Positions 2,802 to 10,607 of a stretch of DNA of 10,719 nucleotides are shown in pieces. The first letter of the stretch is position 1; every line of letters starts with the position of its first letter. Under the pieces are notes generated by a model. It was given only the letters and a program-made list of their open reading frames with translations. It did not search any database and was not told where the DNA came from. The translations under genes were made by a program, and so were the position numbers. This DNA is from Burkholderiales bacterium (GTDB taxonomy: Bacteria > Pseudomonadota > Gammaproteobacteria > Burkholderiales > Usitatibacteraceae). The stretch is taken from the NCBI GenBank assembly GCA_017880705.1, contig JADGRS010000067.1:1-10719 (forward strand), given 5' to 3'.

Positions 2802-4808
2802 TCAGTTGAGGAGCTTGGCATTGCCGTCGACGATCTCCGCGGGGACCCGCGATCCGTCCTGCTTCACGATCTCGCCGCGCGCGCGCGCGAGGCCACCCTC
2901 GAACTCGCCCTCGAAGCGGGTGCCGTCCAGGAACCAGAAGCTTCCCTTGCCCTGCGGCTGCCCGAGCCTGACTTCGCCCTCGTACTTCATCCCCGTCTTG
3001 TAGAAGTAGACGCCCTGGCCCGTGAGCTCCCCGGCCCTGATTTCACCTTCGTAGCGGTCTCCGTTGGAGAAGTAGTAGACGCCCGTGCCCTGCGGCTTGC
3101 CGTCGACGAACGGCGCCTCGACGCGATCGCCATTCTTCGAGTAGTAGCGGCCGCGGCCCTGCAGGCGCCCGGCGTCCATCTCGCCTTCGTAACGATCGCC
3201 GCTCGCGAAGCGATAGACCCCGACCCCTTGGGGCTTGCCGTTCTCGAACGAGCCGTCGAAGACGTCGCCGTTCTTCGACGTGTAGCTGCCGCGGCCCCCG
3301 ATGACGCCGAGCCTCACATCTCCTTCGTACGCGTCACCGTTCGCGAATTGATACTTGCCTTGGCCGTCGGGACGGTCGTTCGCGAAGCGACCCTGGTAGC
3401 GGTCGCCGTTCTCCCAGGTGTACGTTCCTTCTCCCTGCTTCAAACCCTCGTTGAATTCGCCCTCGTAGCGGAACGACTTCGAGACGTATTCGCCCTTGCC
3501 CTGAAGGCTCGCGCCTCGCATCGCGCCGCGATAGACCGATCCGTCGGCAAAGGTGAGCTCGCGTATCCCGGGCGCGATCTCGCGTCCGGGAATCGGATCG
3601 GGCTTGGCCGGTGCCGGATTCGGAAGCGCGGGCGATACCGGAGGCACCGCGGGTTGCGCAGCGAATTGCGCCGCGGGCTTCGGCGGCGGCGCAACCGCGA
3701 GCGCGACCGCGACGGTCACGGCAGGCTTCTCGGTGCGGGCACTTTCCGCGGGCTTGTCGGCGCTCCTCTCGGGGGCTTCGACTCGCGGGGCCGGCGCCGC
3801 GGTCTCGGGTTGCGAGCTGCGCGCTGCGGACGCCGGCTCGGCGGCGGCCACGCGCGTGGGCTTCACCAGCGCGTCGAGCTTGTTCTTCGCGAGCGACGCG
3901 AAGCTGCCGCTCGGATACTTGTCGAGATACGCGCGGATGTCCTCGGGACGCGTCGAGTCGCGGACGCTCACCCAGAACTCGCGCTCGATCTGCAGCGTCA
4001 TGTCGGCGCTCGGGCCCGCCGGCGCCTGCGCGGGGCGCGCGCCGCTGCTCGTCGCGAACGCAAAATCTCCCTTGAGCGACGACGAGTCCCACGGCGTCTG
4101 CAGCTTGCGCGTCTCGCGCTCGACGCCTTCGCGCACGCGCTTGAACATGATCTCGACGGGAAGATCGGGCACCTTGATGTTCTGCAGGATGTGCTTGGTG
4201 TAGATGCCGTTGCGCCCGAAGCCGTCCGCCGCGACCGACCCCGGCGAGGTCGCGTAGGCGATCAGCGTCCCCGAAGGCGAGCTCATCTGCGCGAGGCCCG
4301 CGCTCGTCAGCTTGAAGCTCGAGGCGAACGGGTTGTCGCGACATGCGTCGAGGATGATGAAGTTGAAGCGGGTGCGCGCGCGATCCATGCGGTCGAAGAT
4401 CTGGCCGATCTCGACGGAGAAGAACGTGACGTCCTCCTCCGATCCCATCGCGGCGTCGATCGGCACGAGGTAATTGCGGTCCTTGAACTGCATCGCGTGG
4501 CCCGCGTAGAAGAAGAGCGCCGTATTCGCTCCCTCGATCGCCGCGCCGAATTCACGGATCGCGTCGATCATGTCCTTGCGCGAGGCGTTCTCGCGCACGA
4601 TCACCTGGAAGCCCAGGTCCTTCAGCGCGTCGGCGAGATCGTGCGCATCGTTCGCGGCGTTGCGAAGCGGCGCGGAACCGTAGTTGTTGTTGCCGATGAG
4701 GAGCGCGACGCGATCGGCGGCGCCCGCGCAAAGGCTCGCCGCGCAGGCGATCGCCGCCATGAGCCACGCCAACCCGCGCATCGTCCCCGAAGTCGTCCCT
4801 GCCGCCAC
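2802..4808 (-). CDS. Exported caspase-like (C14) cysteine peptidase with C-terminal MORN repeats
   Basis: 668 residues from GTG 4808-4806. This start is chosen because AGGAGG (4820-4815) lies 6 bases upstream; an in-frame GTG at 4850 lacks such a site, and an ATG at 4781 is the other option. Residues 1-31 form a signal peptide ending CAGAA, so the protein should act in the periplasm or beyond. Residues 32-255 are a caspase/metacaspase p20-type domain: IGNNNY near 39-43, catalytic His104 in FYAGHA, catalytic Cys156 in LDACRDNPF, and YATSPGS near 185-191. Both catalytic residues are intact, so it is probably an active Arg/Lys- or Asp-directed peptidase; the specificity cannot be read here. Residues 277-314 match the short helical motif often found after bacterial caspase domains. 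Residues 315-410 are a Pro/Ala linker. Residues 426-654 hold ten MORN repeats. It is the last of four co-directional genes, 54 bases after the second FecR-like gene. Confidence 0.92.
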   Translation of the reverse strand: MAAGTTSGTMRGLAWLMAAIACAASLCAGAADRVALLIGNNNYGSAPLRNAANDAHDLADALKDLGFQVIVRENASRKDMIDAIREFGAAIEGANTALFFYAGHAMQFKDRNYLVPIDAAMGSEEDVTFFSVEIGQIFDRMDRARTRFNFIILDACRDNPFASSFKLTSAGLAQMSSPSGTLIAYATSPGSVAADGFGRNGIYTKHILQNIKVPDLPVEIMFKRVREGVERETRKLQTPWDSSSLKGDFAFATSSGARPAQAPAGPSADMTLQIEREFWVSVRDSTRPEDIRAYLDKYPSGSFASLAKNKLDALVKPTRVAAAEPASAARSSQPETAAPAPRVEAPERSADKPAESARTEKPAVTVAVALAVAPPPKPAAQFAAQPAVPPVSPALPNPAPAKPDPIPGREIAPGIRELTFADGSVYRGAMRGASLQGKGEYVSKSFRYEGEFNEGLKQGEGTYTWENGDRYQGRFANDRPDGQGKYQFANGDAYEGDVRLGVIGGRGSYTSKNGDVFDGSFENGKPQGVGVYRFASGDRYEGEMDAGRLQGRGRYYSKNGDRVEAPFVDGKPQGTGVYYFSNGDRYEGEIRAGELTGQGVYFYKTGMKYEGEVRLGQPQGKGSFWFLDGTRFEGEFEGGLARARGEIVKQDGSRVPAEIVDGNAKLLN
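2847..3533 (-). repeat. Ten tandem MORN repeats, 23-residue period
   Basis: Within the caspase gene the repeat anchor (YEGE-type) falls at residues 426, 448, 471, 494, 517, 540, 563, 586, 609 and 632: one 22-residue step and then eight exact 23-residue steps. Each repeat has the YxGxxxxGxxxGxGxY pattern typical of MORN beta-hairpins. Repeat 7 (VEAPFVDG) has lost the Tyr-Glu-Gly start, and repeat 10 is degenerate at its end. MORN arrays mediate lipid or protein contacts, or simply form an elongated beta platform. Confidence 0.9.
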
Positions 4809-4814
4809 GTGCTT

Positions 4815-4839
4815 CCTCCTCGAGCGAAAATTATCGCTC
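4815..4839 (-). promoter_or_regulatory. Leader hairpin and strong Shine-Dalgarno before the caspase gene
   Basis: On the minus strand GAGCGA (4839-4834), a TAATTT loop and TCGCTC (4827-4822) form a 6 bp hairpin. It ends one base before AGGAGG (4820-4815), the ribosome binding site that decides the GTG start at 4808. The AT-rich loop, GATAATTTT, also resembles a weak -10 element, so a separate caspase transcript is possible but not supported by a -35 box. This 54-base gap is the only real spacing in the four-gene cluster. Confidence 0.5.
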
Positions 4840-4862
4840 AAAGGGGGCACGCTTGCGTAGCC

Positions 4863-5684
4863 TTAACGCGAAAGGGCCGCAAGCTCCGTGAGGTCGGGCC
4901 GTTCGCGAGCGAGCGCCGCCCACGCCTCGCGGGCTTCTTGCGAGGCGCCGATGTCCTGCAGGAGGAGCGCGTGGAGCACACGCTCCGAGAAGGTCTTCGC
5001 CGAGACGCGCGACTTCTCGGCCTTCGCGGCAAGCGGCGCCGAAAGGGTCTCGAACCGCGCCTCGCCGAGCATCCCCTTGGGCGTCACGACCGTCCACCGG
5101 TACGCGCTCGCCGGCGCGAGCTTGACCGAAGGCCGGGCCGATCCCGCTTTCGCGCTTCCCTTCCAGATCTCCCGACCGCTCGCGTCGATCAAGGTGACCG
5201 TGGCTCCTTCCAGTCCGGGATCGCCTTTCCAGCGCATTGCCGGCTGCAGCGTTGTCACGCGCGTGTCGACCGGATACTCGAGCGCGGACACCGCTCGCGC
5301 CTGCGGCACGATGCCGCGCATGCGAAGGCTCGCCGTGGCGGTGCGCGACACCCGCGCGACGACGGTTGGATCGGGCAGCGCGGTCACGGTCCTGCGCGCC
5401 GGGCGCACGCCCTTCTCGGCGCTCACCTCGCGTTCGTCGATACGGAACTCGCCGGGTCCCGCCAACGTGAATTCGGTGCCGCTCGCGCCGTAGGTCACGG
5501 CGACAGTGGCGCCGCTGCCCACGAGCAGCTTCGTTCCCGCGGCGAGCTCGGCGAGGAAGGCCAGCATGCCGTCGCCCTCGATCGTGACATTGCCCTTCAC
5601 GTCGGAGACGAAGGCTACGGGAGCTCCCGCGTGCGCCGCGAACGCGAGCGCCGCGACGAGCGACGCTCCGGCGGCGCGAATCAC
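4863..5684 (-). CDS. Exported FecR-like domain protein, second paralogue
   Basis: 273 residues from GTG 5684-5682 to TAA 4865-4863. The start overlaps the stop of the preceding paralogue as GTGA and has no clear Shine-Dalgarno of its own, so translational coupling is likely. Residues 1-20 look like a signal peptide (cleavage after AAHAG). Residues 22-85 resemble the FecR-type beta-sandwich (VKGNVTIEGDG, then LLVGSGATVAVTYG and EFTLAGPGEFRI). Residues 130-215 look like an Ig/fibronectin-type segment (LQPAMRW, YRWTVVTP, RFETLS). Residues 232-273 are helical and TPR-like, ending in a motif shared with its neighbour (GASQEAREAW, then ELAALSR). Unlike iron-transport FecR there is no cytoplasmic anti-sigma region, sigma factor or TonB receptor nearby. 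It is probably a periplasmic structural or ligand-binding protein; its partner is unknown. Confidence 0.88.
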   Translation of the reverse strand: MIRAAGASLVAALAFAAHAGAPVAFVSDVKGNVTIEGDGMLAFLAELAAGTKLLVGSGATVAVTYGASGTEFTLAGPGEFRIDEREVSAEKGVRPARRTVTALPDPTVVARVSRTATASLRMRGIVPQARAVSALEYPVDTRVTTLQPAMRWKGDPGLEGATVTLIDASGREIWKGSAKAGSARPSVKLAPASAYRWTVVTPKGMLGEARFETLSAPLAAKAEKSRVSAKTFSERVLHALLLQDIGASQEAREAWAALARERPDLTELAALSR

Positions 5685-6514
5685 TTGGCGAGCGCGGCGA
5701 GCTCCGGGAGGTCGGAGCGTTCCTGCGCGAGCTTCGCAAATCCTTCGCGCGCTTCCTGGGTCGCGCCCATCTCCTGGAGCATAAGCGTGAAGAGCAGGCG
5801 ATCGGAGAACTCGGCCTTGTCGGAAGGCTTGCGCTTCTCGACTTGCGCGAGCGCGTCGTGCGAGAGCGTGCGGAAGCGCCCCGAGCCGACCTCATTCCCG
5901 GCGATCGTCACCGTCCACGTGTAGTCGGTATCGGGGAGGAGTTTCGCCGGAACGCGATAGGTACCCGCGGAGACCCTGGCGATATGGACGGGCTTGTCGT
6001 GACCCGCTACGAGGAGGACGAACTCGCCGCTCGCCTTCGGATCCGCGGCGCGCCAGCGAAACGTCGGTTGAAGCGTGGCGATGCTACCCTGCGTCGGGAA
6101 TAGGAGCTTCGGCTCGGTGTCGGGCTTCGGCAACGCGATCGAGCGCATGCGCACGCTCGCCGCGGAGGTCTGCGCCACCTGCACGAGGACCTTGTCGTTG
6201 GTGCGCCACGCCGTCTCGCGAGTCACCGGCGGCATGCCCGTGGAACCCGAGATCTCCGCGTCCTTCACGACGTAGTCCGCGGGACCCTTCAACACGTATT
6301 CCTTGCCGTTCGAGATATACATCACCGAAGCCTGGGAATCCCTGCCGACCGCGATCTTCTGGCCGCGATTCAATTCCGACAGGATCGCCGGGCGTGGATT
6401 GCCGTCGACCGCGACATCGCCCTTCAGGTTGGCAATGAACGCGATGCCGTCGGCTGCGAGGGCCGGCGCCGCGAGGAAAAGTGCCGCGAGGAATGCGCGC
6501 TGGATCGTTTTCAT
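5681..6514 (-). CDS. Exported FecR-like domain protein, first paralogue
   Basis: 277 residues from ATG 6514-6512, which overlaps the cyclase stop as ATGA. A GGAGG (6526-6522) lies 7 bases upstream inside the cyclase gene, giving a well-supported start. Residues 1-21 are a clear signal peptide ending in APALAA. Residues 23-85 match the FecR-type beta domain (NLKGDVAVDG, IAVGRDSQASVMY, EYVLKGPADYVV). Residues 140-217 form a likely Ig/Fn3-type sandwich (LQPTFRWRA, YTWTVTIAG, RFRTLS). Residues 235-277 are a C-terminal helical hairpin with QEMGATQEAREGFAKL. It shares domain order and several motifs with the next gene (VRMRSI versus LRMRGI; TLQPTFRW versus TLQPAMRW; QEARE near the end), so the pair arose by tandem duplication. 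Its place directly after a CHASE2 cyclase suggests the two work together at the envelope; this is inference. Confidence 0.9.
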   Translation of the reverse strand: MKTIQRAFLAALFLAAPALAADGIAFIANLKGDVAVDGNPRPAILSELNRGQKIAVGRDSQASVMYISNGKEYVLKGPADYVVKDAEISGSTGMPPVTRETAWRTNDKVLVQVAQTSAASVRMRSIALPKPDTEPKLLFPTQGSIATLQPTFRWRAADPKASGEFVLLVAGHDKPVHIARVSAGTYRVPAKLLPDTDYTWTVTIAGNEVGSGRFRTLSHDALAQVEKRKPSDKAEFSDRLLFTLMLQEMGATQEAREGFAKLAQERSDLPELAALAK

Positions 6515-8391
6515 TGGATTGCCTCCGCTCTTGCCGCAGCAGGCGCGGCACGCGCCGTGCGAATGCCCCAGACCTTGACCGGGCTATGGCCCTTTACGTT
6601 GTGGCTGCCCAGCGGATCGAAGTTGAAGCCTTCTCCGATCCTGCTCACCACGTCCTCGGTGATCACGATCTTTCGCCCGAGGTCCTTGGTGAGTCCTTCC
6701 ACCCGAGCGGCGACGTTCACCGCGTCGCCGATCGCCGAGTAATTGTGCCGCTCCGACGAGCCGATGTTGCCGACGGTTACGGTGCCGAAGTTTATGCCGA
6801 TCCCGATCGTGAGCGTCGGCAGGCCTTCGCGCGCGAACTCGACGTTCAGCTTGTCGAGCTCGTCCATCATCGCGAGGGCGCACTTCACCGCGTCGCCGCA
6901 AGGATCCCTCAGCTTCAGTGGAGCCCCAAAGAGAATCATCATGCCATCGCCGATGAACTTGTCAACGGTGCCGTTGAACCGATGCACAGCATGCACCATG
7001 CGGTCGAAATAGCGCTGCAGAACAGTCGTCACTACGCTCGGGGGCATCTTCTCGGAAAGAGTTGTGAAGTCGCGCACATCGCTGAAGAGGACGCACACCT
7101 CGGCGAGCTGGCCGCTCACGCCGGGCGACATCGTGCCGTCCAGCATTTCCTTCATCACCGCGGGGCTCACCTGGCCCGCGAAGTGCTGCTGCATCCGCAG
7201 GCGGTCGATCACCGCTTCGACCGCGTCGAAGATGCCGCGCGCGACGAGCGCGAGCCAGAAGGTCGCGGTCACTGAGGCGATGGGAAGGACGAGCTGCGCC
7301 GCGTATATCGTGGCGAGGCTCGCCGCGGCAAGGGCCGCCGGCACCAGGGCCGCCAGGGCGATGACGATCAGCGGGCGCACGCTGAGGAACACCGCGACCG
7401 CCGCCAGGGCCATCATCAGCCAGCGAAACGCTTCTGGAGTCGGACTCAGCAGCCCGCTGCCGAGCATGCTGCGCAACGCCTGCAGATGGACGAGCACGCC
7501 GGGCTGGTTGTATGCGAGGGTTCCCTCGTCGCGCGCGGCGCCGTCCTCGATCGCGGCGCCCGGATCCTTCGCGAGAAGTATCACCGGCAGGCGCCAGCGA
7601 TCCGTCGTGCGGATGAGGCTTCCCAGCAGCACGACGCGCCCGCCGAATTGCTTCTCGAGCCATTGCGCGTCGCCGCTCCTGTCGACGAGCACGTGCAGGG
7701 GAACGTACTCGAGGGGCGCCCCAAGGCTGTAGTCGATGTAACCCTCGCCGACGGGGCGGCCCATCACGCGCAGCAGCTGTCCCGCCAGCGTCGGCACCGG
7801 CTTGCCCGTTTGCGACGAGGCCCGCTCGCTGAAGAGGCGCGAGACCGAGTCCGGGTCGCGCAGCTGCTGGTCGATGCCGAGATTCTCAGGCCCGAGGATT
7901 CCGCGGGTGTAGTTCTCCTGCACGGGCACGAGCTCTCCGCGCCGGTTGACGGTCTGCACGAACACGATGGCGGCGCTGCGCTTCAAGTCGACGAGCCCCC
8001 GCATGAGCGCGAGGTCGCTGCCGGGAACGATCGCGTCATAGCTGTGCTCGGGCAACACGATGTCGACGCCGACCGCCCGGGGTTTCGCCAGGGCGAGCCC
8101 GTGGTACGCGCGCGCGAAGTGGCGATGCCAGAGCGCGTAGGGCTCCGGATAGGCGGCCTCGGTGTCGTCGTTGATGCCCACCAGCACGACGTCCTCGGCG
8201 AGAGGACGAGGCTTCAGCTCGCGCAACGCCCGCATCTGCAGGTCGAACGCGAGCCGCTCCGCATCGGTGAGCGGCGCTTCGTAGGGCGACGGAAGCAGCG
8301 CCGCCGCGAGTACGAGCAGCGCCACGACGAAGTAGAGGAATCCCCCCTTCAGCCGTTTCGAGCCGCGCAGTCCCTCCCAGAACCTGGCCAT
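6511..8391 (-). CDS. CHASE2-domain membrane class III adenylate cyclase
   Basis: 626 residues from ATG 8391-8389, stop TGA 6513-6511. It converts ATP to cAMP under control of an extracytoplasmic sensor. Order: short cytoplasmic start; TM1 at about 17-34; CHASE2 sensor at about 40-310, including VVLVGINDDTE (68-78) and GVDIVLPEHS (108-117); three membrane segments at about 322-386; a linker helix with FAGQVSPAVMKEML (404-417); and the catalytic domain at about 430-600. Metal-binding Asp438 (FSDVRDFT) and Asp482 (IGDGMM), adenine-selecting Lys478 (VDKFIGDG) and Asp556 (AIGDAVN), and transition-state Asn559 and Arg563 are all present, so it should be an active homodimeric adenylate rather than guanylate cyclase. 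The upstream ribosome binding site is weak (AAGAGAAT). It is the first gene of the four-gene cluster; no convincing promoter was seen in the 60 bases before it. Confidence 0.95.
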   Translation of the reverse strand: MARFWEGLRGSKRLKGGFLYFVVALLVLAAALLPSPYEAPLTDAERLAFDLQMRALRELKPRPLAEDVVLVGINDDTEAAYPEPYALWHRHFARAYHGLALAKPRAVGVDIVLPEHSYDAIVPGSDLALMRGLVDLKRSAAIVFVQTVNRRGELVPVQENYTRGILGPENLGIDQQLRDPDSVSRLFSERASSQTGKPVPTLAGQLLRVMGRPVGEGYIDYSLGAPLEYVPLHVLVDRSGDAQWLEKQFGGRVVLLGSLIRTTDRWRLPVILLAKDPGAAIEDGAARDEGTLAYNQPGVLVHLQALRSMLGSGLLSPTPEAFRWLMMALAAVAVFLSVRPLIVIALAALVPAALAAASLATIYAAQLVLPIASVTATFWLALVARGIFDAVEAVIDRLRMQQHFAGQVSPAVMKEMLDGTMSPGVSGQLAEVCVLFSDVRDFTTLSEKMPPSVVTTVLQRYFDRMVHAVHRFNGTVDKFIGDGMMILFGAPLKLRDPCGDAVKCALAMMDELDKLNVEFAREGLPTLTIGIGINFGTVTVGNIGSSERHNYSAIGDAVNVAARVEGLTKDLGRKIVITEDVVSRIGEGFNFDPLGSHNVKGHSPVKVWGIRTARAAPAAARAEAIQ

Positions 8392-8600: not shown

Positions 8601-10607
8601 ATGATTCGCTGGCTGGGCACCCAGATCCGGGTCGCCGCCTACTTCGCGAACCTGGTTCTCGTCGCGACATTCCTCGGAATGGGACTCGGTGTCGGGCTCG
8701 GGCGCACCCGCCCGCAATGGGCACGCTGGGCGCTTCCCGTGCTCGCGTTGTCGTCGCTGCTGATCGCCGCGGCCGGGCCACTGGGGCTGACGCACCTGAG
8801 GTTCCCGGATCCCACGATCAGCCTGTGGGGCAACGACTCGGGCGCCACCTGGGCTCAATTCTTCGGCTCCACCGTGGTGGTCACCGCCTGCTTCTGGGGC
8901 ATCGCAAGCATCTTCATGCTCCTTGGCATCCGCGTCGGGATCCTGTTCGACCAATTGGCGCCGCTGAAGGCTTACGCGGTCGACCTGGGCGGGTCCCTGG
9001 CGGGCGTGATCGCGATGGCGGTCGCCGCGGCGCTCTGGTCTCCTCCTCCCGTGTGGCTCGCGCTGGGCGTGTTGCCCATCGTGTGGATACGCCGTGACCG
9101 CCTGAGCGTGGCCGCGGCGATCGTGGCGATCGTGGCGGCCGGTCTCTCCGTCAACGGCGCGCGCTTTTCACCCTACAACCGGATCGATCTCGAGCGCGGC
9201 GTCGAGTCGCACTTCGGACAGCCTTCGAGCGGATCCACCGAGTGGATGCTCAACGTCAATCGGGACTATCACCAGAGGATGCTCGATCTGCGCCCTGCGG
9301 CGAGCCAGGCCAACGAGTTCCGCGACTTCATCCGGCGAGTCTACGAATTGCCATTCAGCTTCAGCGCGGGGGCGAATCGCTCGGCGCTCGTGGTCGGTGC
9401 GGGGACCGGCAACGACGTGGCGGCGGCATTGCGGCGAGGGTTCGATCGCGTGGTGAGCATCGACATCGATCCGGCGATCCTGCAGACTGGTGCGGAGCTG
9501 CATCCGGAGCACCCCTACTCCGATCCGCGGGTCTCCCGCGTGACCGACGACGCGCGCGCGTATTTCGGGAATCCCGCTGAGAATCGCCGATTCGACGTCG
9601 TGTGCTATGGCCTCCTCGATTCGCACGCGATGTTCTCCTCGATGTCGTCGTTGCGCTTGGACAATTTCGTCTACACGGAGGAAGGTCTCTCCGCGGCGTG
9701 GGCCCACGTCGCCGACGGCGGCATCCTGAGCGTCTCGTTCTCGGTTGCCGGCGGCGAATGGATCTACCGGCGCCTTCTCGGCCTCGTGCGCAAGGCGACG
9801 AGCCTCGATCCCGTGGTTGTCCAGCACAACTACGACTACGGCGTTACGTTTTTGGTCGGGCGCCAGCTGAACCTGGCCCAGGTGCAGGCGCTGATGCCGA
9901 TGGCGATACGCGGAGAGCCCGACGCGGCGTGGATCCGGATTCCGAGCGACGATTGGCCGTTCCTGTATCTGCGTCCGCAAACGGTGCCATGGACGTACCT
10001 CAGTGTATTTCTGCTCATCGCGCTGAGCAGCACTCTCGCCGTGCGGGGCGTCTTCGGACGCAGCTTGTTCTCGCGCGGACGGTTCGACCTGCAGATGTTC
10101 CTGCTCGGGGCAGCATTCCTCCTCCTGGAAACGCGCGCCGTGACGCAGCTGAGCCTCCTGTTCGGCTCGACCTGGATCGTGAACACCAGCGTGTTCGGCG
10201 GTGTCCTCGCGATGGTGCTGGCGGCGAATGGCGTCGCGGGGCGCCTGCGCGGCTATGAACGCAAGCTTTGGTATTCGCTGCTGGCGCTCTCGCTGCTTGG
10301 CCTGTGGCTTCTGCCGCTACGGCTCCTCGTCGAGCTTCCGTTGCTTGCGCGCGCCGCGATCGGCGGCATCGCTTTCGCCATCCCGATCTTCTTCGCGGGC
10401 GTCATCTTTTCCTCCGAGCTGCGCACGCGCTCGGACTCGGCTGCCGCGCTGGGATGCAATCTCTGCGGAGCCGTCGTTGGAGGACTGCTCGAGAATCTGT
10501 CGATGCTGATCGGGCTGAAGGCGATCGGCCTCCTGGCGCTGGCCATTTATCTCGGCTCGCTGCAGGTCGCGATGCGGCGCCCCGCGCAAGCGCAGAGCGC
10601 TCCCTAG
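8601..10607 (+). CDS. Polytopic membrane protein with spermidine-synthase-like Rossmann domain
   Basis: 668 residues from ATG 8601, the first ordinary start codon in frame; stop TAG 10605-10607. The frame stays open upstream, and that stretch (ELGLTTFAILVLELA) completes the first membrane helix, so the true start is probably earlier, perhaps ATC 8508 behind GGGAG (8496-8500). N-terminal membrane helices reach about residue 185. Residues 195-450 are a SpeE/methyltransferase-type fold: GAGTGND at 266-272 for a nucleotide or SAM-like ligand, acidic SIDIDP at 286-291, and DDARAYF at 316-322. Residues 460-655 add further membrane helices, including LLLETRAVTQLSLLFGSTW (507-525), typical of large membrane-bound spermine/spermidine-synthase-like proteins. 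The usual catalytic DSTD motif is replaced by YGLLDSH (336-342), so aminopropyl transfer is doubtful. The substrate is unknown. It diverges from the cyclase operon. Confidence 0.85.
   Translation: MIRWLGTQIRVAAYFANLVLVATFLGMGLGVGLGRTRPQWARWALPVLALSSLLIAAAGPLGLTHLRFPDPTISLWGNDSGATWAQFFGSTVVVTACFWGIASIFMLLGIRVGILFDQLAPLKAYAVDLGGSLAGVIAMAVAAALWSPPPVWLALGVLPIVWIRRDRLSVAAAIVAIVAAGLSVNGARFSPYNRIDLERGVESHFGQPSSGSTEWMLNVNRDYHQRMLDLRPAASQANEFRDFIRRVYELPFSFSAGANRSALVVGAGTGNDVAAALRRGFDRVVSIDIDPAILQTGAELHPEHPYSDPRVSRVTDDARAYFGNPAENRRFDVVCYGLLDSHAMFSSMSSLRLDNFVYTEEGLSAAWAHVADGGILSVSFSVAGGEWIYRRLLGLVRKATSLDPVVVQHNYDYGVTFLVGRQLNLAQVQALMPMAIRGEPDAAWIRIPSDDWPFLYLRPQTVPWTYLSVFLLIALSSTLAVRGVFGRSLFSRGRFDLQMFLLGAAFLLLETRAVTQLSLLFGSTWIVNTSVFGGVLAMVLAANGVAGRLRGYERKLWYSLLALSLLGLWLLPLRLLVELPLLARAAIGGIAFAIPIFFAGVIFSSELRTRSDSAAALGCNLCGAVVGGLLENLSMLIGLKAIGLLALAIYLGSLQVAMRRPAQAQSAP

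Follow-up and report, generated by a model that had tools for sequence, protein, structure and literature searches.

Contig JADGRS010000067.1 from the draft genome of a Burkholderiales bacterium was analyzed over its entire length of 10,719 bases (the window). Judged from the names of near-identical proteins, this genome is close to Usitatibacter. According to the open reading frame (ORF) list and Pfam, it carries four co-directional minus-strand genes at 2802–8391, between two plus-strand genes (Table 1). In downstream order, these encode a nucleotidyl cyclase with a CHASE2 domain, two small FecR-like proteins (FecA and FecB) and a caspase-MORN peptidase. The cyclase and FecA genes share an ATGA overlap (6511–6514) and the FecA and FecB genes a GTGA overlap (5681–5684). 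The 54-base gap between the FecB and caspase-MORN genes is valid for a GTG start at 4808, with AGGAGG 6 bases upstream. The coordinates, common direction, overlaps and gap listed in an earlier reading of the same letters (hereafter, the original prediction) agree with the ORF list. Its three export signals are plausible by hydropathy (h-regions of 2.24–2.31). Scans for promoter-like sites (1, against 0.4 expected) and terminator-like sites (1, against 3.8 expected) were uninformative. Comparative genomics couples the CHASE2-cyclase gene with a caspase-fold gene and with a single gene or a pair encoding exported FecR-like/Fn3/TPR-like proteins. The four genes are best explained as belonging to a signalling cassette that faces the periplasm and recurs in other genomes.

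Table 1. Genes and ORFs of the window (aa, amino acids)
Feature	Positions	Strand	Basis or location
pepN aminopeptidase gene	2 to 2491	plus	flanks module
42-aa basic ORF	2626–2754	minus	3′ of caspase gene
Caspase(C14)-MORN peptidase, predicted exported	2802–4808 (or start 4850)	minus	ORF, Pfam
FecB, tandem paralog of FecA, 273 aa	4863–5684	minus	ORF, alignment
FecA, predicted exported adaptor-like protein, 277 aa	5681–6514	minus	ORF, alignment
CHASE2 + class III nucleotidyl cyclase, 626 aa	6511–8391	minus	ORF, Pfam
Methyltransferase-like gene, 668 aa	8601–10607	plus	other flank of module

The cyclase, the peptidase and the FecR-like proteins

The cyclase matches the Pfam families CHASE2 (expectation value, E, 1e-16) and Guanylate_cyc (E 2e-24). 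Hydrophobic stretches lie near residues 16–34, 320–338, 341–359 and 365–383, followed by the cyclase domain at 428–610. The cyclase alignment (A3) contains 19 sequences. Asp438, Lys478, Asp482, Ser552, Asn559 and Arg563, which we take to be the metal, purine and transition-state residues of a class III cyclase, are all present, confirming the intact active site that had been predicted. The protein thus has the composition of CHASE2 receptor cyclases, a CHASE2 domain joined to a class III catalytic domain with its key residues.

The peptidase consists of a C14 domain (Peptidase_C14, E 3.7e-38), a Pro/Ala-rich linker and MORN repeats (E 7.5e-40). Its catalytic dyad, His118/Cys170 when counted from the GTG at 4850, corresponds to His104/Cys156 from the GTG at 4808, so that the Cys156 and intact active site of the original prediction hold with the latter start. 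This His-Cys dyad is as expected for a member of Peptidase C14, and is kept in all 15 aligned sequences, the window's included. His118 and Cys170, together with Asp68 and Asp168, are conserved in 120 of 120 proteins, these being the best 120 of 3,668 database proteins with the window's own counted. The positions of Asp68 and Asp168 presumably correspond to the Arg/Lys (basic-residue) pocket of metacaspases. The closest solved relatives of the C14 part are MALT1 paracaspase chains (E 9e-22). Orthocaspases cleave after positively charged residues (PMC6426788; this and the papers cited below are drawn on in excerpt). Since the dyad and both aspartates are kept, the window protein is likely an active, exported, Arg/Lys-directed peptidase, as judged from its sequence. 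It has the C14 domain in common with orthocaspases and MALT1, and differs from them by its predicted export and its MORN fusion.

FecA is composed of a predicted signal peptide, a FecR-like/anchoring-type β domain (residues ~22–106), an Fn3 domain (~135–217) and TPR-like helices (~219–276). The linker contains a conserved ASxRMR motif (119–124), whose residues are kept in 120 of 120 sequences among the relatives listed; Arg124 is kept in 46 of 48. FecB is a tandem paralog with 39% identity to FecA. Neither protein has a Pfam match at E≤1, and the Pfam FecR family (PF04773) is absent among the 17 families matched at this threshold by any of 30 family members; the FecR model does match other genes of the same genomes. 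Profile-profile comparison (hhalign) of 48 FecA-type sequences with 26 FecR domains extended at the N terminus gave a probability of 40% (E 3e-4) over 52 columns, and the A1 alignment against 27 trimmed FecR domains gave 0.4%. The original prediction is corrected in two respects: the two proteins are tandem paralogs, and the FecR label has weak support; we retain "FecR-like" as a weakly supported name for these small proteins. The succession of an Fn3/Big domain and TPR-like helices is that of the MtxA structure (PDB 4z29), giving FecA an MtxA-type architecture; a search of PDB sequences with the A1 profile returned no match to the 4z29 chain at E≤1. The solved "Cell surface anchoring domain" 5ix9 is a fold match to the FecR-like protein.

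Conservation, recurrence and partner exchange

FecA matches were found in 23 of 150 genomes, 18 of them from the same family (own genome included in both counts). The cyclase-FecA-caspase order on a single strand is kept in all 17 family relatives with a FecA match, four of which (L039, L047, L048 and L051) have a contig end or a split caspase frame. Eight of the 17 also have FecB. Next to the module, pepN is found in 8 of 17, and the order is also kept in eight loci (L046–L053) with no pepN found in the stretch; the contig of L039 is short. Of the ten family genomes without a FecA match, G001 and G003 retain the MORN-encoding half of the caspase gene and are therefore not countable as module-less. 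Among five genomes checked in genus g2, the two with FecA (G009 and G015) have a C14 gene and the three without it (G006, G011 and G013) have none; G013 nonetheless has a partial, Fn3-only match to the FecA profile (E 5.6e-5). A single-sequence search of genome contigs returned no relative. An alignment-based search gave 17 loci, 15 in genomes already sampled and two new ones from Rhodoferax (L072 and L073).

Across the order, the FecA-family profile gave 50 rows in 36 of 399 genomes, which were reduced to 43 loci, 33 from outside the family and ten from within it, the window among them. All were scanned with custom profiles at E≤1e-5. Caspase-fold genes, of either the C14 or the CHAT type, were counted anywhere in the stretch irrespective of strand; the distance from the FecR-like gene to their nearest end is at most ~3 kb, and they do not always share its strand. 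A CHASE2-cyclase gene adjoins the FecR-like gene in 33 of the 43 loci, a caspase-fold gene is nearby in 26, and both are present in 25. When the comparison is confined to the 26 loci that match at least 150 of the 273 profile positions, a cyclase is found in 25 and a caspase-fold gene in 21. Two borderline cases were not counted, namely L141, in which a gene next to the FecR-like one reaches E 6e-12 with the cyclase profile, and L145, with a short C14 match (E 6e-6). Loci with a contig edge near the match (L118, L125, L137, L142, L143, L146, L191 and L203) are uninformative on missing neighbours. As a control, 40 other CHASE2 loci, hand-picked from the top of the CHASE2 ranking at one per genome and hence non-random, gave no FecR-like, no C14 and one CHAT match at E≤1e-5; loosening the threshold to 1e-3 added a single weak FecR-like match (E 6e-4). 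Most of the control cyclases represent another subfamily of ~740 aa, and those of L106, L109 and L117 match the cyclase profile weakly. The original prediction named homologous genes being usually unlinked as grounds for its refutation; these counts do not bear that out and support one conserved module.

The caspase-fold partner usually comes with a repeat scaffold, MORN here and WD40 or TPR elsewhere. C14-MORN partners are found in the ten family loci and a WD40-C14 partner in L127, with further C14 partners in L123 and L124 (two genes each) and L134. CHAT partners, most of which have TPRs where scanned with Pfam, occur in L054, L055, L119–L121, L126, L128–L130, L133, L146 and L147. In L124, the FecR-like and caspase genes are separated by a second, short FecR-like gene (8821–9513) in the opposite orientation.

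At the level of the phylum, profile matches were found in 28 of 398 genomes, own included. From the 38 rows outside the own genome, 15 loci were scanned, comprising all seven full-length matches and eight hand-picked partial ones; the 23 rows left out include 20 Fn3-only matches. A cyclase gene lies beside the FecR-like gene in 8 of the 15 loci and a caspase-fold gene is present in 10; for the seven full-length loci, the numbers are 3 and 6. The link between CHASE2-cyclase, FecR-like and caspase-fold genes thus recurs across the order and beyond it. Four genomes of one genus outside the order (L192–L195) pair a FecR-like gene with a C14 protein, with no cyclase detected, so the FecR-like and caspase-fold genes may themselves be a unit. 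WD40 repeats were identified in the three of these C14 proteins scanned with Pfam, C14 being listed for at least two.

On a quick cyclase tree of 20 C14 and 12 CHAT loci, which has long branches and from which L141 was left out, the partner changes five times, and at least three of these changes are forced by well-supported branches. Next to one and the same kind of cyclase, a caspase-fold gene of one family was thus replaced by one of the other. A second cassette, consisting of cyclase, FecR-like and CHAT genes with a divergent CRP-family gene beside the cyclase, is present in three single-contig genomes of the same genus (L126, L128 and L129; the CRP-family protein scanned with Pfam was that of L128). 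The genome of U. palustris (G004), a Usitatibacter, carries this cassette as well as the first, in that case lacking FecB. In all three, the sole strong CHAT gene of the genome sits in this cassette; G002 has one additional weak CHAT match (E 2e-8). Overall, a CRP-family gene adjoins the cyclase in 7 of the 43 loci (L054, L055, L119, L126, L128, L129 and L142), each time with a match of E 8e-70 or better. Weak CRP-family matches, at best E 1e-11, occur within the stretches of 4 of the 40 control loci. The window's genome has 16 cyclic-nucleotide (cNMP)-binding matches.

A remnant of the second cassette lies at 11947–13807 of L138, from the own genome (C293). Its cyclase match ends at about residue 367, so that the cyclase domain is missing, and FecR-like and CHAT genes were not found there. 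The divergent CRP-family gene is kept, and the next same-strand gene shares 81–84% identity with the aminotransferase-like gene found after CHAT in L126, L128 and L129. In L056 (8303–12578), a cNMP-binding-GGDEF-EAL gene stands directly upstream of CHASE2-cyclase and FecR-like genes on the same strand, an arrangement that is a possible link from cyclic AMP (cAMP) to cyclic-di-GMP.

Published systems and a candidate pathway

Parts of the cassette have counterparts in print. In Magnetospirillum, mtxA is encoded beside a CHASE2 adenylate cyclase (PMC4439547); it precedes the cyclase there, and the word "caspase" is absent from the main text of that paper. In Sinorhizobium meliloti, the gene for the FecR-domain protein SMc02177 adjoins smc02178, which is near cyaD1 and clr (PMC5498481). 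A CRP-type regulator, a CHASE2 cyclase and a FecR-domain gene thus stand close together, as in the CRP-cyclase-FecR cassettes of L055, L119 and L142. Unlike the window, where no CRP-family gene was detected, this cluster includes a CRP-type regulator, its FecR protein is a target of the pathway, and the excerpted text mentions no caspase-fold gene. In the BiofilmReg operon of Burkholderia, an exported LysM-FecR protein is encoded beside a CHASE2 receptor (PMC5192318), which in that case is a histidine kinase with a response regulator, and DUF4136 takes the place of the caspase. A single metacaspase-CHASE2 protein has been published from Trichodesmium (PMC3501461); in the operon section of that paper, CHASE2, cyclase and FecR partners are not named. 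The excerpt of PMC8195603 mentions CHASE2 once, for another system, and does not mention FecR or MORN. The statement in the original prediction that no described pathway joins the four parts therefore holds for all four together, as far as searches of the open-licence literature go, and fails for pairs and triples (PMC4439547, PMC5498481 and PMC5192318). CHASE2-cyclase genes with exported FecR/MtxA-type pairs, a CHASE2 kinase with a LysM-FecR protein, and the metacaspase-CHASE2 fusion are already in print. A caspase-fold partner joined to a cyclase and a FecR-like protein was not found in the open-licence literature, nor was CHASE2 with CHAT.

To our knowledge, caspase homologs are common in prokaryotes, mostly with no pathway assigned to them, and what CHASE2 domains perceive is largely unknown; the cassette offers a concrete set of partners for both questions. 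Its parts probably act in one pathway. It is reasonably likely that the cyclase makes cAMP and that a CRP-family protein reads this signal. For the direction of signalling we slightly and tentatively prefer an input role in which the peptidase acts upstream of the cyclase, a role that fits the coupled genes and the repeated association of adaptor and caspase. The exported FecR-like protein would serve as an adaptor, its Fn3-TPR part docking partners, and would couple the caspase-fold protein to the periplasmic CHASE2 domain. The caspase would cut the adaptor or another envelope protein, probably after Arg or Lys. Cleavage would alter the state of CHASE2 and hence the rate of cAMP synthesis, and a CRP-family protein would read the cAMP in the cytoplasm. 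Bacteria could in this way turn proteolysis beyond the inner membrane into a cAMP signal. Cutting of the adaptor would have an analogy in adhesin retention modules, which undergo periplasmic proteolysis; the 5ix9 fold match prompts this comparison. The fully specified version, with a secreted Arg/Lys-specific caspase gating the transmembrane adenylate cyclase via an exported adaptor that is itself cut, and with C14 and CHAT as interchangeable inputs, must be considered doubtful.

Several observations weigh against the input role. No cyclase neighbour was detected in 10 of the 43 loci and no caspase-fold gene in 17, some of these at contig edges, and the trees, quickly built, have long branches. 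C14 genes also occur outside cassettes: of the eight C14 matches in the three single-contig genomes, three lie in the first cassette and five elsewhere. ASxRMR as a cleavage site limited to caspase-bearing loci was rejected: L056 and L122 keep a related motif and yielded no caspase gene, so that reading it simply as a caspase site does not suffice. The strict pattern is also missing in several caspase-bearing loci (L121, L123 and L126–L129). From the literature, deletion of mtxA gave no phenotype under standard conditions, and the metacaspase of the Trichodesmium fusion is placed in the cytoplasm by its authors (PMC3501461). Lastly, the S. meliloti proteins SMc02177 and periplasmic SMc02178 are targets activated by cAMP-Clr that are dispensable for perception of the plant signal, and smc02177 and smc02178 are required for infection control (PMC5498481).

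The S. meliloti data suggest an output role for the FecR partner there. Applied to the window, such a scheme has the CHASE2 cyclase sensing alone or via an outer-membrane protein, as NsrA takes part in sensing in S. meliloti (PMC13001267); cAMP would then act through a CRP-family protein on genes, and the FecR-like proteins and the caspase would be effectors or feedback parts. The seven loci with a CRP-family gene next to the cyclase are in its favour, and we regard it as a serious contender, if short of probable. Against it, no separate unit is formed by the genes for the exported proteins, which overlap the cyclase gene or come shortly after it. The profile scan detected no CRP-family gene in the window, which counts against an output role and an input role alike.

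The input role assigns the caspase-fold protein a cutting function. Its repeats might matter instead, making it a binding scaffold, which would fit the variation of the repeat type (MORN, WD40 and TPR) and the replacement of C14 by CHAT. We consider this improbable, as the scanned C14 partners of L123 and L124 have no repeat domain and His118, Cys170, Asp68 and Asp168 are kept throughout the alignment and database samples described above. Mere co-inheritance, that is, an operon of functions that never meet, could point to pepN and the 42-aa ORF, which also stay near in some genera with no evident functional tie; recurrence across families and the phylum, partner exchange within one structural class and the nearly empty control make it rather more improbable still. 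Pycsar systems combine a cytoplasmic cyclase with an adjacent effector that is bound by a cyclic pyrimidine, and an anti-phage unit of a Pycsar-like cyclase and a suicide caspase is highly improbable here: PADLOC does match a Pycsar cyclase (E 6e-27) and a caspase (E 7.6e-14), but many class III cyclases and C14 domains would be expected to match in this way (at E≤0.1, five proteins gave only cyclase, caspase and mad2 models), the caspase is predicted to be exported, the cyclase is of the receptor type with a CHASE2 part, and the cassette lies beside pepN in the relatives noted above and not in a variable island.

Other gene orders and flanking features

The ~740-aa CHASE2-cyclase of the control loci has a gene order of its own that is repeated widely across the order (L082, L085, L087, L093, L094, L096, L099–L103, L105, L107 and L113). 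Around the cyclase are neighbours near 850, 275 and 250–310 aa, then of about 255, 790 and 545 aa, with variations. Three loci from one genus (L055, L118 and L119) have genes for two-partner-secretion (TPS) exoproteins, with the TPS domain, near the FecR-like and CHASE2-cyclase genes, accompanied in L055 by a ShlB-type transporter.

In the window, the methyltransferase-like flanking protein has a spermidine-synthase/methyltransferase-like middle part (E 5e-5) and a PADLOC mad2 match (E 1e-7). The 42-aa basic ORF, preceded by GGAGG and TATAAT, encodes an unannotated small protein of the bacterial family, with matches of 68–100% identity in 28 of 100 genomes when the own genome is counted, some of which are without the module. 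It was rejected as a fifth gene of the module, being present in G006, G011 and G013, none of which has a FecA match. In the g1, g3 and g4 loci, it adjoins the 3′ end of the caspase gene.

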